Below, piece after piece: positions 28,587 through 33,316 of a DNA stretch of 33,316 nucleotides; the stretch's first letter is position 1, and each line of letters starts with the position of its first letter. The notes under the pieces are model-generated. The model made no database searches. It was not told the origin of the DNA and worked only from the letters and a program-made list of their open reading frames with translations. A program made the translations under genes and the position numbers. Source of the DNA: Candidatus Uhrbacteria bacterium (GTDB taxonomy: Bacteria; Patescibacteriota; Patescibacteriia; JACRJV01). The stretch covers positions 1-33,316 of the forward strand of contig JACRJV010000008.1 in the NCBI GenBank assembly GCA_016215325.1. Direction: 5' to 3'.

Positions 28587-29045
28587 TTACGGGCAGCTAA
28601 CGGTGCTCCCGCCATTTACATCAAATGTGGCGTAGATCCAAGGAGTTACCTTTCCCGTTGTACCACAGATATCTTTGTTCGGATTCTCGAGTAGGGTGTA
28701 TAGTGTGTTCGCTGGGAGGGCATCCGTTGCTTTTCCCGGCTTGCTCCAATTCACATCAGTGATGGAGCTGGTATTCATGTACCTCGCCGGAAATGCAGCT
28801 ACCGGAAGCGAGGCGTTCACCGCACCCGGGGCTGGCGTCGTCCCTGACGGCGGGAAAATCCCAAAATCATCATAATACAAGGTCATTGCGGTCTGAAGCG
28901 CTTTCCAGTTGCCTATTTTCTTCGCGTCCCGAGCTTTGGAGCGGGCAGTACTGAATGACACCACCGCAATGCTCGCCAAAATACCGATGATGGCGATGAC
29001 CACCAACAACTCTAGCAGCGTAAAACCCTTGCGAAGTCCTTTCAT
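28587..29045 (-). CDS. Major type IV pilin-like prepilin
   Basis: A 152-residue prepilin with a seven-residue leader ending at G7, then FTLLELLVVIAIIGILASIAVVSFSTARSKARDAKK. Glu at mature position 5 and the long hydrophobic alpha1 are standard for type IV pilins. The C-terminal half is small, with two Cys near the end (C145-type position and the penultimate Cys) that may form the D-loop disulphide. It has its own promoter region and a terminator behind it, consistent with high expression of a major subunit. It would be processed by the prepilin peptidase at 15796. Confidence 0.92.
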   Translation of the reverse strand: MKGLRKGFTLLELLVVIAIIGILASIAVVSFSTARSKARDAKKIGNWKALQTAMTLYYDDFGIFPPSGTTPAPGAVNASLPVAAFPARYMNTSSITDVNWSKPGKATDALPANTLYTLLENPNKDICGTTGKVTPWIYATFDVNGGSTVSCP

Positions 29046-29170: not shown

Positions 29171-30394
29171 TCAACCCCCTTGCGCATTAATGAGGGAAAA
29201 CATCGGCATCAAGATAGCGGCAACCATCCCCCCGACGGCAACTCCCATCACCACCATAATCACCGGTTCAATCAATGAAATGAGGCCATCGACCAACGTG
29301 TTGATTTCCTTAGAATAAAAACTTGTGAGGGTTTTGAGAATTTCTTCCAATCGCCCAGTCTGTTCCCCAATAGCCACCATATGCGCAACTGACTGTGGGA
29401 AGTTGGGATTATTCATGACTTGGCTTGCAATGGTGTTCCCTTCCCGAACCGCCGTGGTCGTATCGATGAGCATTTTTTTCCAGACTGCGTTACCAATGAC
29501 ATTAGCGACGATTTCCATTGCTTGGGCCAAGGGGACACCGCCACCCATAAGGGTTGAGAGTGACCGAGTAAAACGAACAAGGTAAATCGTCGCAAATAGT
29601 TTCCCGAAGATCGGTGTTTTGACCTTAAGTTCATCAAACAGAAGCCTCCCATTCGGCGTGTTGATCAATGATCGGAGGGCAGCAAATGCTCCCGCCGCAG
29701 CCAACGCCACCAGCCACCAGTAGCCTTGTAAGATTTTACTTGTGGCAATCAGCGCTCGTGTCATCAACGGCAACTCGGCGCCACTCTCTACGAGCATCTG
29801 CGTAAGTTGCGGCACAACAAAAATCATCATGATGAACCCCACAACGATCATCGCGCACACAATAAAGGCCGGGTACATCATGGCGCCCTTAATCTTTGAT
29901 GCAAGCTCGTAATCACGTTCGGACTGATCGGCCAAGTAATTAAGGGTTTCATCAAGCTTGCCCGAGGCTTCCCCAGCCTTGACCATGGAGATAAAAAAAT
30001 CGCTGAAGGTGCCGGGGTGGCGAGTGAGCGCTTCGGAGAGCTTCATGCCACCGTCGACATCGTCCGCCATTTGCACCACGATTTTTTTTAACGGCTTGTT
30101 TTGGGTTTGTTCCATTAAAATATGGAGGGCTTGCACAATGGGGACCGAAGCCGCCATCATCACGGATAGTTGACGTGAAAATACCACGAGATCCTTCATT
30201 TTGACGCCACCAAAAAACTTAAAGCCACCGCCGCCCGACCCCTCCAGGATGCCTTCTTTGCGAACGACCAGACTAATGATGGTCAAGTCTTTATCGCGCA
30301 AAATCGAAACCGCCGACTCGTCGGTAGAGCCTTCCACGATGCCTTCGACATAATCCCCTTTGGGGCTTTTGGCACGGTAGTTGTAGAGTGACAC
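29171..30394 (-). CDS. pilC: Type IV pilus inner-membrane platform protein
   Basis: A 407-residue PilC/GspF-type protein that couples the assembly ATPase to the pilus. The N-terminal MSLYNYRAKSPKGDYVEGIVEG segment is typical. Two T2SF domains follow: the first with FSRQLSVMMAASVPIVQALHIL, the second with FTRSLSTLMGGGVPLAQAMEIV. Three membrane helices are visible near 170-190, 218-240 and 375-400. The end, LIEPVIMVVMGVAVGGMVAAILMPMF, is canonical. The start codon is GTG at 30394 and no Shine-Dalgarno sequence is seen. It is separated from pilB by 529 bases that contain the S23-like gene. Confidence 0.95.
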   Translation of the reverse strand: MSLYNYRAKSPKGDYVEGIVEGSTDESAVSILRDKDLTIISLVVRKEGILEGSGGGGFKFFGGVKMKDLVVFSRQLSVMMAASVPIVQALHILMEQTQNKPLKKIVVQMADDVDGGMKLSEALTRHPGTFSDFFISMVKAGEASGKLDETLNYLADQSERDYELASKIKGAMMYPAFIVCAMIVVGFIMMIFVVPQLTQMLVESGAELPLMTRALIATSKILQGYWWLVALAAAGAFAALRSLINTPNGRLLFDELKVKTPIFGKLFATIYLVRFTRSLSTLMGGGVPLAQAMEIVANVIGNAVWKKMLIDTTTAVREGNTIASQVMNNPNFPQSVAHMVAIGEQTGRLEEILKTLTSFYSKEINTLVDGLISLIEPVIMVVMGVAVGGMVAAILMPMFSLINAQGG

Positions 30395-30427: not shown

Positions 30428-30885
30428 GGTAATAGACGATGGAAAATGGAAGATAGAAGCTACTGCTTCCGATCATGATAATCCTGCCAGACTTGCGATA
30501 ACCTCGTCAATTGCCTACAAGAACGAATATATAAATCAATGACCGAGTTACAGACGTCAACATTAACGTCATCCTCATAGAGATCAATACAAACCCGAAT
30601 ATGGTGAATCATTTCATTACATTCTCCGATTGTATCATGGATATATTTTCGCCATTGTCGATCCTGAAAACGTTTTGCAAATCCTTCAGCAATTAATGCT
30701 GGGCCGGCTTTTGAGGCTCGCCTCATCTGATCCACTAAATCAAATTTTTCTTCTCGAGGCAAAAAAGCAATAATATCCTTATGCACTATAATCATCGCTC
30801 TATACAAATTTTGATAGACCTCTAAATCAGAAAAATCTCTAATGGGCCGTTTTGTTCTAGTTTCCATGATCCAATTTCCATTACC
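30428..30885. mobile_element. S23-like gene flanked by imperfect inverted repeats (candidate mobile unit)
   Basis: Left flank: GGTAAT (30428-30433), then GGAAAATGGAAGAT (30441-30454). On the minus strand the right flank (30885-30866) reads GGTAAT followed directly by GGAAATTGGATCAT. The arms therefore match at all six and at 11 of 14 positions, apart from a seven-base insertion. The repeats touch both ends of the S23-like reading frame. The unit sits between pilB and pilC, genes normally adjacent or separated only by other pilus genes. Mobility is inference; no transposase is encoded here. Confidence 0.45.
30460..30867 (-). CDS. S23/Avd-like four-helix-bundle protein
   Basis: A 135-residue protein of the four-helix-bundle family that includes proteins encoded in 23S rRNA intervening sequences and the Avd accessory protein of diversity-generating retroelements. 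Recognisable features are FSDLEVYQNLYRAMIIVHK at the N terminus, then LVDQMRRASKAGPALIAEGF, RQWRKYIHDTIGECNEM and a long C-terminal helix. The family forms basic pentameric barrels that can bind nucleic acid; stand-alone copies are common in CPR genomes with unknown function. No reverse transcriptase, variable repeat or rRNA gene is nearby. The start codon lies at the edge of the right inverted repeat and the stop at the edge of the left one. It has no evident link to pili despite its position. Confidence 0.88.
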   Translation of the reverse strand: METRTKRPIRDFSDLEVYQNLYRAMIIVHKDIIAFLPREEKFDLVDQMRRASKAGPALIAEGFAKRFQDRQWRKYIHDTIGECNEMIHHIRVCIDLYEDDVNVDVCNSVIDLYIRSCRQLTRLSQVWQDYHDRKQ

Positions 30886-30923: not shown

Positions 30924-32678
30924 TCATTCCTCCGCCAGCCCTGATGTGGCGGCTATCACTTCCTCCATCGTGGTGATCCCGGCGGCGACTTTAAGGATTC
31001 CGTCTTCGCGCATATTGCTTTGGCCTTGACGATTGATTTCATCGCGCACTTTGCCCGGGTCGTTGCCTTCGGTAACGATCTTTTGCAACTGCGGCGTCAT
31101 CTCGATAAACTCCGCAACCGTCGTACGCCCTTTGTACCCAGTATTGCCGCACCGCGCGCAGCCCTTGGCTTTGTTCGCCTTGATCACCACATTGCCATCC
31201 GGGAATTGATCTTTGAGGATTGCTTCCGGCACGCCTTTGAGCACTTTTGTGATCTCATCCACCATGTTCTGCGGCAGTTCAGTGGGCTCTTTGCATTTCT
31301 CGCATAATGTGCGTACCAAGCGTTGTGCCATGACCAAATTGAGCGTAGAGACCAGCAAAAAGGGTTGTACATCCATATCAATTAAGCGCGGGATGGCTCC
31401 AAATGCGTCGTTGGTATGGAGCGTCGAAAAGACAAGGTGCCCCGTCAACCCGGCCTGGACCGCAAGACTCGCGGTTTCACCATCACGGATTTCCCCCACC
31501 ATAATCACATCCGGATCTTGGCGCAAAATCGAACGCAGACCCGAGGCAAACGTAAACCCGACTTCGCTATTTACTTGGCTTTGATTAATACCAGGGAGTC
31601 GATATTCGACCGGATCTTCGAGTGTGACGATATTAATGTCTTCGGCATTGACCGAATTAAGCGCCGCGTAGAGCGTTGTTGATTTACCGCTACCGGTAGG
31701 GCCGGTGATCAAAAACATGCCATGCGGCTTGTCAATATTGCGCTGCATGATTTGGACATACATGGGACGGAAGCCTAGTTTTGCCAACTGCGGCGCGCCT
31801 TTGGTAGTATCCAGCACCCGCATGACGATTTTTTCGCGGCCTTGGAGGGGGAGTGTGGACACGCGCAGATCAACGATCGTTCCGCCCCCTTCAAACCGAA
31901 TTCGGCCGTCTTGGGGAACGCGATTTTCATCGATTTTTAGGTTCGCCATCACCTTGAACCGCGAGACCAGCGCGGGGTGGAGGTTCCCTGGCAGCGACAA
32001 AGATGTGCGCAAATCTCCATCGATCCGATACCGCACACGCGTTTTGGTTTCATCTAACGGCTCAATATGAATATCGCTGGCTTTGTTATCCACCGCGAAC
32101 CGTAAAATCATGTTGGCAATCTTGGACACGGGCGCCGAGCGGATCACCTCTTCCATTTTTTTCTCTTCTTCGGAAAGCGCCTTCTCCGGGGCCGTCATCT
32201 GTTGCTCTGCCTCTTTGACCACGCTGGTTACCTCTTTGCCTAACATCCGGTACTTTTTAAGGGCATTGAGGAAATTTGTCCTGGTGATTACAAAAAACGT
32301 GACCGGCTGCCGGCGCTCTTTGGCTAAAAACTCAACTGCCTCCATGGCTTGGTAATCTAATGGATCCTCAACCCCGACCAGCAAGGTGTTCCCTTCTACT
32401 CCAAAGGAGATTACTTTGTAGTGCTCCGCAACGTCTTGCGGGATCGTTTCCACCATCTGTTGATCAAACGCAACGTCCGCGAGATCCTTGACCGTAAGCT
32501 TAGCATGCTCCGCCTTGAGGTTGGCAATCTGATCTTCGGTCATGATTTTGCCGGTCACGAGTTCTTCTTCGAGACTAGTCTCATGCTCGCGCGCAAGCTC
32601 CTCCAAGGCGGTGATTTGTTCTTTCGTCGCCATCTGTTTGGCTAACAAGAGATCGGCAAATGTGAGGATGTCATTCAT
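30924..32678 (-). CDS. pilB: Type IV pilus assembly ATPase
   Basis: A 584-residue GspE/PilB ATPase that powers pilus extension. The N-terminal MshEN/T2SSE-N domain covers about 1-150. The core domain has SDIHIEP, Walker A GPTGSGKST near 324-332, an Asp box at VTLEDPVEYRL and Walker B DPDVIMVGEIRD near 386-397. A His box follows at GHLVFSTLHTND. A zinc-binding Cys tetrad follows (CEKC and CARC in CARCGNTGYKGR), which marks PilB rather than the retraction ATPase PilT. The open frame extends to 32777, through a GC-rich palindrome translated as Pro/Ala-rich sequence, so the ATG at 32678 (MNDILTFADLL) is used. The gene ends with tandem stops TGATGA. Confidence 0.96.
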   Translation of the reverse strand: MNDILTFADLLLAKQMATKEQITALEELAREHETSLEEELVTGKIMTEDQIANLKAEHAKLTVKDLADVAFDQQMVETIPQDVAEHYKVISFGVEGNTLLVGVEDPLDYQAMEAVEFLAKERRQPVTFFVITRTNFLNALKKYRMLGKEVTSVVKEAEQQMTAPEKALSEEEKKMEEVIRSAPVSKIANMILRFAVDNKASDIHIEPLDETKTRVRYRIDGDLRTSLSLPGNLHPALVSRFKVMANLKIDENRVPQDGRIRFEGGGTIVDLRVSTLPLQGREKIVMRVLDTTKGAPQLAKLGFRPMYVQIMQRNIDKPHGMFLITGPTGSGKSTTLYAALNSVNAEDINIVTLEDPVEYRLPGINQSQVNSEVGFTFASGLRSILRQDPDVIMVGEIRDGETASLAVQAGLTGHLVFSTLHTNDAFGAIPRLIDMDVQPFLLVSTLNLVMAQRLVRTLCEKCKEPTELPQNMVDEITKVLKGVPEAILKDQFPDGNVVIKANKAKGCARCGNTGYKGRTTVAEFIEMTPQLQKIVTEGNDPGKVRDEINRQGQSNMREDGILKVAAGITTMEEVIAATSGLAEE

Positions 32679-32703: not shown

Positions 32704-32786
32704 GTCTGATTCTCGCCACCGCAGCGTGCGGGCCCCGCCAACGGCGGGGCGGGGCCCGCTGGGGCGGGACTTGACAAGAATCAGAC
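32704..32786. repeat. Nested GC-rich palindromic element upstream of pilB
   Basis: Outer arms GTCTGATTCT (32704-32713) and AGAATCAGAC (32777-32786) are a perfect 10-base inverted repeat. Inside, GCGGGCCCCGC (32728-32738) and GCGGGGCCCGC (32749-32759) form a perfect 11-base stem. The element fills the space between the small membrane-protein gene and pilB. It has no uridine tract. It could be a REP-like repeat, or an RNA structure tuning pilB expression relative to the upstream gene. Confidence 0.8.
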
Positions 32787-32792
32787 AAGTTC

Positions 32793-33152
32793 CTAAAACC
32801 GCGGGAATGCGGGAGTCCTCGTTGTACTGGAATCTTCCAATTCTTCCGGCCCTTCTTCCAACGGTAACGGCGCAAAAGGATTCGACCGCCCCAGCGTGCC
32901 AGTGTCGAGTTTCCCAGAAACTTTTTTGAGTGCGTTCCAGCGCGGATCCGTGAACAGAGCAACGTCGAACTTTGTCTGCAACGGCCGCTGGCGTTCAACA
33001 TCCACCACGCTGGATCCCGCATCGGGACTCGTGTCTACCTCCGAGGGGAAGACCTTGGGCACGACGAGTACCGCCGTGGCACCCAACACCACCACAAGTC
33101 CCAATGTCAAAAGGATCGTTTGATCTCTGGTGAGTTTATCCGGGATTTTCAT
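32793..33152 (-). CDS. Small single-pass membrane protein of the pilus operon
   Basis: A 119-residue protein with one membrane helix at about 11-32 (ILLTLGLVVVLGATAVLVV) and a basic N terminus inside. A hydrophilic C-terminal part contains DVALFTDPRWNALKKVSG and LGRSNPFAPLPLEEG. The GRSNPF segment resembles the ends of small pilus alignment components (PilP/PilO-like), but no family can be assigned firmly. It is upstream of pilB on the same strand. GAGG lies four bases before the ATG, within the end of the palindromic element at 33154-33313, so that element now supplies its leader. Confidence 0.65.
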   Translation of the reverse strand: MKIPDKLTRDQTILLTLGLVVVLGATAVLVVPKVFPSEVDTSPDAGSSVVDVERQRPLQTKFDVALFTDPRWNALKKVSGKLDTGTLGRSNPFAPLPLEEGPEELEDSSTTRTPAFPRF

Positions 33153-33153
33153 A

Positions 33154-33313
33154 AGACCTCTTGCAAAATAAATTTTCTGGACAAAATAATGATTTTTTGA
33201 GAAAAAACTAAAGGAAAAATTTTGATGTTTAGCCCTAGCTAAGCGGAAAAATTTTTAATTGGTTTTTGCCAAAAAAGCATATTTTGACGGGAAAGTTATT
33301 TTGCAAGCGGTCT
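33154..33313. mobile_element. Long imperfect palindrome, MITE/foldback-like element
   Basis: The left end AGACCTCTTGCAAAATAA (33154-33171) and the reverse complement of the right end (33313-33296, AGACCGCTTGCAAAATAA) match at 17 of 18 positions. The arms stay alignable for about 77-80 bases to a central TTAGC-CCTA-GCTAA hairpin (33229-33242), so the whole 160 bases is one foldback. ATA occurs directly outside both ends (33151-33153 and 33314-33316), a possible 3-base target duplication. The left one overlaps the start codon of the 119-residue gene. There is no coding capacity. Confidence 0.75.
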
Positions 33314-33316
33314 ATA

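Follow-up and report, generated by a model that had tools for sequence, protein, structure and literature searches.

A palindromic MITE of Patescibacteria that adjoins start codons at operon junctions

The genomes of Patescibacteria are about 1 Mb in size and densely organized in operons, and how mobile DNA can last in such genomes is a standing question. Within the IS5 family of insertion sequences (ISs), the ISL2-type group makes a 3-bp duplication of the type ANT. ERIC, Correia, RUP and BOX repeats resemble the element described here in being short, palindromic, transcribed and located between genes, and Correia elements affect expression (PMC10969869); a placement exact to one base at start codons, with frame-preserving ends, is not described for these repeats in the literature open to search. 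Integron attC sites are likewise imperfect palindromes with conserved mismatches, lying between co-transcribed genes, and their hairpins act on translation in integron cassettes (PMC8876359). However, attC sites are served by a tyrosine integrase and show no target duplication, whereas our element is flanked by 3-bp duplications and has a DDE-type partner IS; as target duplications are present and no cassette arrays were seen, identity with attC was ruled out. A recently active MITE inside an operon, known from a review and a reference title, is alike in its operon location, and the text of that review mentions neither a start codon nor a Shine-Dalgarno (SD) sequence. Closest are MITEs and ISs of the IS5 family (cyanobacterial and other, with ends AGACCTCTTGCAAAATAA), which share the 18-bp end and the 3-bp duplication with our MITE, and whose autonomous partners (L114, L150) encode HTH_Tnp_4 plus DDE_Tnp_4/DDE_Tnp_1 transposases. 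Compared with these ANT elements, the Patescibacterial MITE differs in its TAT/G (TAN) target, its full-length palindrome of ~160 bp, its fixed orientation and its start-codon adjacency. A MITE of an IS5-like element is a known kind, while the TAT/G target, the fixed orientation, the start-codon placement and the frame-preserving ends are described nowhere in the literature open to search. That search returned no paper joining MITEs and Patescibacteria, and its CPR matches were unrelated papers on diversity-generating retroelements.

The window analyzed, 33,316 nucleotides in length, is a contig (C4) of a Candidatus Uhrbacteria genome of 1.14 Mb (27 contigs, 92.6% complete). Its last 163 bases consist of a 160-bp imperfect palindrome followed by ATA (Table 1). 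End comparison, self-alignment and folding confirmed the long imperfect palindrome, the near-perfect match of its ends and the small central hairpin that a preliminary description of this DNA had reported. The element matches its own reverse complement at 75% over all 160 bases and, folded as single-stranded DNA, reaches -42 kcal/mol, compared with -16 +/- 3 kcal/mol in shuffles, none of 200 being as good. The flanking ATA duplications, previously proposed as possible, are real and recur at other copies in the genome, and the left one overlaps the CAT of the 119-aa ORF, which bears out the contact between the left end and the ATG of a minus-strand gene. As the two arms differ by mismatches conserved in an alignment of relatives (A2), each copy has a direction.

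Table 1. Positions of the MITE, its parts and the adjoining pilus genes in JACRJV010000008.1.
Feature	Position	Strand	Basis or remark
Palindromic MITE (foldback element), 160 bp	33154..33313	.	5 genome copies 98-100% identical; fold z = -8.6
Left terminal inverted repeat AGACCTCTTGCAAAATAA, faces gene	33154..33171	+	same 18-mer at both ends of IS L164:1967-3032
Right terminal inverted repeat AGACCGCTTGCAAAATAA	33296..33313	-	17/18 match to left repeat
Target-site duplication ATA (gene strand: TAT), overlaps start codon	33151..33153	+	sequence and comparison of copies
Target-site duplication ATA, right flank	33314..33316	+	sequence and comparison of copies
Start codon ATG of downstream gene	33150..33152	-	sequence; ORF list
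SD-like AGAGGT in element end, 3 nt 5' of ATG (AGAGGT-CTT-ATG)	33156..33161	-	sequence; function putative
TAG formed by last T of duplication and AG of element; stop available to an ATGA-overlapping upstream gene	33312..33314	-	seen used in L002, L029, L040, L047, L061
Central hairpin TGTTTAGC-CCTA-GCTAAGCG	33226..33245 (about)	+	folding; covariation at the corresponding site of relatives (helix 4)
119-aa gene beginning MKIPDKLTRDQTILLTLGLVVVLG, apparently membrane-anchored; its ATG adjoins the element	32793..33152	-	Pfam and NCBIfam: no match
pilB-like type IV pilus assembly ATPase	30924..32678	-	TIGR02533/TIGR02538, below equivalog cut-offs
pilC/gspF-like gene	29171..30394	-	profile match
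Prepilin with N-terminal methylation motif	28587..29045	-	TIGR02532 over its cut-off

The genome contains three intact copies (C4, C10 and C13) and two at a contig edge (C6 and C14), 98-100% identical. One of the edge copies must be the second half of an otherwise complete copy, which makes four or five copies in all. ATA follows the right end in all five, CATA precedes the left end in the three that have a left flank, and the flanks otherwise differ. C6 and C14 break within the element, cut at the same base, and the window contig stops at 33316 because of the repeat; where the preliminary description had looked to sequence after this position, there is thus none. Order-level searches around this genome, G096 and G155 gave few further copies. 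A profile search of the whole genome found no match to PF13359 (DDE_Tnp_4), so that the transposase noted as absent from the window is, for this family, absent from the assembly as well, although at 92.6% completeness a copy may be missing.

Of 381 genomes sampled from the class, 17 contain the terminal 18-mer (at most one mismatch); across 84,980 species scanned, it occurs in many Patescibacteria, in cyanobacteria and in a few others. The Patescibacterial matches are mostly palindromes of 158-170 bp with 3-bp duplications TAT/ATA, TAA or TAG; in the oriented set, 21 copies had matching duplications, which were TAT in 17, TAA in three and TAG in one. The cyanobacterial relatives show ANT duplications (ATT, AAT, AGT) and include complete ISs of ~1030 bp with DDE_Tnp_4 transposases. 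An IS with the terminal repeats of our element, which the preliminary description had suggested looking for, was found outside the window genome: L164:1967-3032, of 1066 bp, carries AGACCTCTTGCAAAATAA at both ends (18-bp identity) and a TAT duplication followed by G, and its transposase matches HTH_Tnp_4 (6.5e-12) and DDE_Tnp_4 (5.9e-7) in profile searches. The same IS occurs in the Patescibacterial genome G577, and L156:224-1283, a second IS with shared ends and also from another genome than the window element, matches HTH_Tnp_4 (2.1e-11). In both L164 and L156 the transposase is split over two frames, whether by programmed frameshifting, decay or an assembly error. An IS insertion with a clean TATG target was seen once. 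The partner's DDE_Tnp_4/HTH_Tnp_4 transposase places it in the IS5 family; the ANT duplication of the ISL2-type group, however, is shown by the cyanobacterial members, while Patescibacterial ones duplicate TAN, mostly TAT followed by G. IS200/IS605-type and REP/RAYT elements, which have a Y1 transposase and no target duplication, were ruled out by the 3-bp duplications (TAA and TAG included) and by the DDE-type partner.

Judged by its sequence, the 160-bp palindrome is a MITE, a small mobile DNA element of Patescibacteria: it is short, non-coding and multi-copy, bears terminal inverted repeats, is flanked by duplications at unrelated sites and shares its ends with a transposase-bearing element. 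The same points support the earlier view of a non-autonomous foldback or MITE mobilised from elsewhere. Searches with the terminus and the full element gave several copies here and relatives across Patescibacteria, not a single copy kept in sequence and place, and the mobile-element reading stands.

Other possible partners in the class were set aside. ORFs around the first, single-end matches were ordinary genes, the DDE_Tnp_4 loci L178 (ends AGACCTGTTGCGTATTAA, ATT duplication) and L170 belong to other subfamilies, and L175-L177 have unrelated ends. L178:1033-2053 is itself a complete IS5-like IS of 1021 bp with a 300-aa DDE_Tnp_4 transposase, and is the probable partner of the AGACCTGTTGCATAAT palindromic MITEs.

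To relate the family to genes, we considered all of its unique ends (n = 115) and counted, at offsets 0 to 59, each ATG that starts an ORF of ≥90 codons. Such an ATG stood at offset 1 in 22 of the 115 ends, compared with a mean of 0.29 at the other offsets (P about 1e-33). All three intact copies of the window genome read GCAAGAGGTCT-TATG into an ORF. Palindromic MITEs of subfamilies with other ends served as an internal control: a start codon adjoins 2 of ~94 of them (one a TTG), compared with 11 of 18 in the present subfamily, and none of 112 elements has one at its other end. According to profile matches, the genes starting at the element include those for SecA (from residue 5), Obg (from residue 3) and a carbamoyltransferase (from residue 3); further such genes encode ribosome recycling factor (RRF), ribosomal protein L1, RsmA, MltG, RtcB, IF-2, UvrC and PPDK, as well as exonuclease III-like and DNA polymerase III delta'-like proteins. 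Alignments of IF-2 with homologues from relatives in the same order begin at residue 1, and the region upstream of IF-2 was free of the element in all six relatives read, two of which have ...TTTAT or ...CACTAT before the ATG and so represent empty sites. Start-codon abutment is, on these alignments and counts, a rule for the family and not a coincidence, and the preliminary description was right to ask whether the element replaces the leader and affects expression.

Target choice would account for part of this pattern. The base following a TAT flank is G in 30 of 33 ends; this also holds for 8 of 11 TAT flanks that do not border a gene, and some TATG copies face no ORF. TATG would thus be a preference of the transposase, and the element could be an ordinary MITE that reaches start codons through this preference in gene-dense genomes and through purging of in-gene insertions, the genes being translated in a leaderless or SD-independent manner with no role for the element. 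We regard this as a serious account but not the favored one. In particular, target preference leaves unexplained that gene starts are over-represented even among TATG sites: 22 of 30 TATG ends (73%) open a gene, whereas the share is 27% among the non-coding TATG sites of these loci (crude ORF calls; P about 1e-7). In 23 of 24 copies adjoining TATG, including copies that face no gene, the same arm points toward the TATG.

Most start-codon copies sit at tight operon junctions. Among the 17 gene-facing copies with known upstream sequence, a co-directional upstream ORF ends within 15 nt of the element in 12, and in a 13th it ends 8 nt inside. In five ATGA overlaps (L002 of the window genome, L029, L040, L047 and L061), the upstream TGA has become TAG at the element edge and the downstream ATG is kept, now preceded by the SD-like GAGGTCT; the computed empty site is a TGA overlapping ATG in the four of these with an intact duplication, while L061 keeps TATGA downstream. 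As the upstream frame stops at the edge and the downstream ATG is retained, the insertion changed neither protein. At L040, for example, the upstream archease is complete (profile 1-136 of 136; protein of 136 aa) and RtcB comes next. Other pairs split in this way are UvrD-like helicase/RsmA, UvrA-like ABC protein/UvrC and pyruvate kinase/PPDK.

To judge from gene content, the window copy, too, very probably lies within a single operon, in the order pilM, further genes, MITE, 119-aa gene, pilB, pilC and pilin. Contig C14 starts in the element and continues into a 266-aa ORF that ends in TAA 8 nt before it, upstream of which lie a 482-aa ORF and the gene for PilM (PF11104, 8e-42), all reading toward the element; on C6, no ORF ends at the element and the neighbours are other genes. 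The 119-aa gene, described earlier as the first gene of the pilus operon, does touch the element with its ATG but is probably not the first, because pilM and two further ORFs read toward the element on the same strand of C14, a contig that opens with it.

Of the 30 TATG cases, 13 have GAGGTCT-TATG at the gene-facing end and nine have AAAGGTCT. A pattern search gave no match to the 3' end of 16S rRNA in the window genome and the anti-SD ACCUCCUUU was therefore assumed; with it, GAGGT, which pairs with ACCUCC, forms a duplex of -6.5 kcal/mol, a value that ranks with roughly the top 5% of random 20-mers taken from the window. The weaker AAAGGTCT, carried by many gene-facing ends, offers AAGGT, for which pairing under the same assumption is weak (-3.6 kcal/mol). 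In most of 17 cases, SD pairing at the present start is stronger than in the former upstream flank. As genes such as obg, rsmA and frr must be expressed behind the element, its end likely serves as their ribosome-binding site (RBS). The GAGGTCT motif itself is a by-product of the inverted repeat and did not evolve for translation, because it is present at all ends and also in cyanobacterial ISs that insert at ANT and not at TATG; any RBS role would be an exaptation. An ordinary MITE without such a role agrees with the motif being equally strong at ends facing no gene, and with the lack of an SD at several native starts in the window and at the IF-2 starts of relatives. Nonetheless, insertion at a tight operon junction puts 160 nt between the native SD and the start codon, and the cell still needs products such as Obg, MltG and RsmA. 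A promoter in the element for the downstream gene was rejected, since its only promoter-like match is on the opposite strand and near chance.

The arms of relatives covary: 89.9% of the cells are paired and 27 of 45 pairs have changed on both sides, a level reached by none of 500 shuffles, with 156 two-sided changes compared with 48 in shuffles. In the predicted read-through transcript from upstream, the SD motif is paired in the base of the stem. These findings, together with the nearness of upstream gene ends, would suit a switch, in which the hairpin holds the gene off or makes it translationally coupled to the upstream gene, stop and start being kept near each other in space so that a terminating ribosome opens the base and restarts; for attC sites between cassette genes, hindrance of ribosomes by the hairpin has been reported (PMC8876359). 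We nevertheless think a switch unlikely. On the gene strand (alignment A2, with rows related to each other), the non-Watson-Crick cells are 20 G:U and 41 A:C, so that the opposite strand folds better, and subfamilies away from start codons are palindromic to the same degree. Covariation was thus not taken as proof of RNA function, and arm complementarity looks to be upheld in the DNA itself, with quasi-palindrome correction as one possible mechanism, rather than selected as an mRNA hairpin. The A:C/G:T skew could also reflect strand-specific DNA processing. If the pilus operon had a conserved regulatory RNA or attenuator here, that would also explain a stable fold adjoining a start codon, but the element is multi-copy at unrelated genes with target duplications. 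No terminator-like site was found in it, and no Rfam family reached its gathering score, the sub-threshold plant miRNA and viral 5'UTR families being taken as chance. Such an RNA is refuted as the origin of the element; only co-option could remain, and we give the idea almost no weight.

Mobility, family, target, fixed orientation, start-codon adjacency and the preservation of both frames can be read from the sequences themselves. Beyond these, we infer the identity of the transposase and the RBS role, and consider it highly probable that the MITE is moved in trans by an IS5-like transposase and that its ends act as an adaptor at start codons. Such a DDE transposase would cut at TAT with G preferred next (TAT/G), and transposition would duplicate the TAT; as start codons often stand in a TATG context, the ATG of a gene would in many copies come to lie just outside one fixed end. 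On the upstream side, TAT plus AG would supply a TAG stop to an upstream gene that had shared an ATGA overlap with the start, while on the downstream side the inverted repeat, as GCAAGAGGTCT-TATG, would put an SD-like motif 3 nt before the kept start codon. The termini would make insertion nearly silent and act as a stop/RBS/start adaptor, which would let the element persist in operons, even before essential genes; in the window genome, the adaptor would work within the pilus operon and also ahead of a holB-like gene and a PLP-decarboxylase gene. A bolder version, which we put forward tentatively and think rather doubtful, is that transposition targets start codons directionally (TAT/G, fixed end) and that ends and foldback form a stop-hairpin-RBS-start adaptor keeping operon genes expressed, perhaps coupled. 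If so, this would be a transposon adapted to the operon junctions of streamlined genomes, and from its strict orientation, combined with near-identical ends, it would follow that transposition reads the asymmetric mismatches of the palindrome, possibly as a folded strand. Landing at start codons with both flanking frames intact would be one answer to how mobile DNA persists in streamlined genomes. For annotation, it matters that in several genomes the element provides the true 5' leader of genes such as secA, infB, obg, frr and rtcB. Operon junctions that carry it are also places where assemblies break, and the window end is one of them.

Some further features of the window and the class should be mentioned. 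At native gene starts of the window, a T before the ATG is very common, and some SD-like runs lie unusually near the ATG (GGGGT-ATG, GAGGGT-ATG, AAGGAGT-ATG) while other starts have none. Between pilC and pilB, a 135-aa ORF (METRTKRPIRDFSDLEVYQNLYRAMI..., 30460-30867, minus strand) presumably resembles the four-helix-bundle proteins of 23S rRNA intervening sequences, and just upstream of pilB a very GC-rich inverted repeat (gcgggccccg...cggggcccgc, 32728-32759) stands in sequence of mixed composition. In the class, 75 of 381 genomes contain palindromes that a covariance model of the family recognizes as related, among them subfamilies with different ends. One such subfamily of near-perfect palindromes of ~160 bp (L246, L253, L284, L234) has ends GGGTCTGTCGCCGAAT and apparent 5-bp duplications (CTATT, ATAAT, GTTAT, TTTAA), and further palindromic subfamilies have ends AGAGCCTGTTTA/TCTCAA and GGGACTGTTGCCGAAT.
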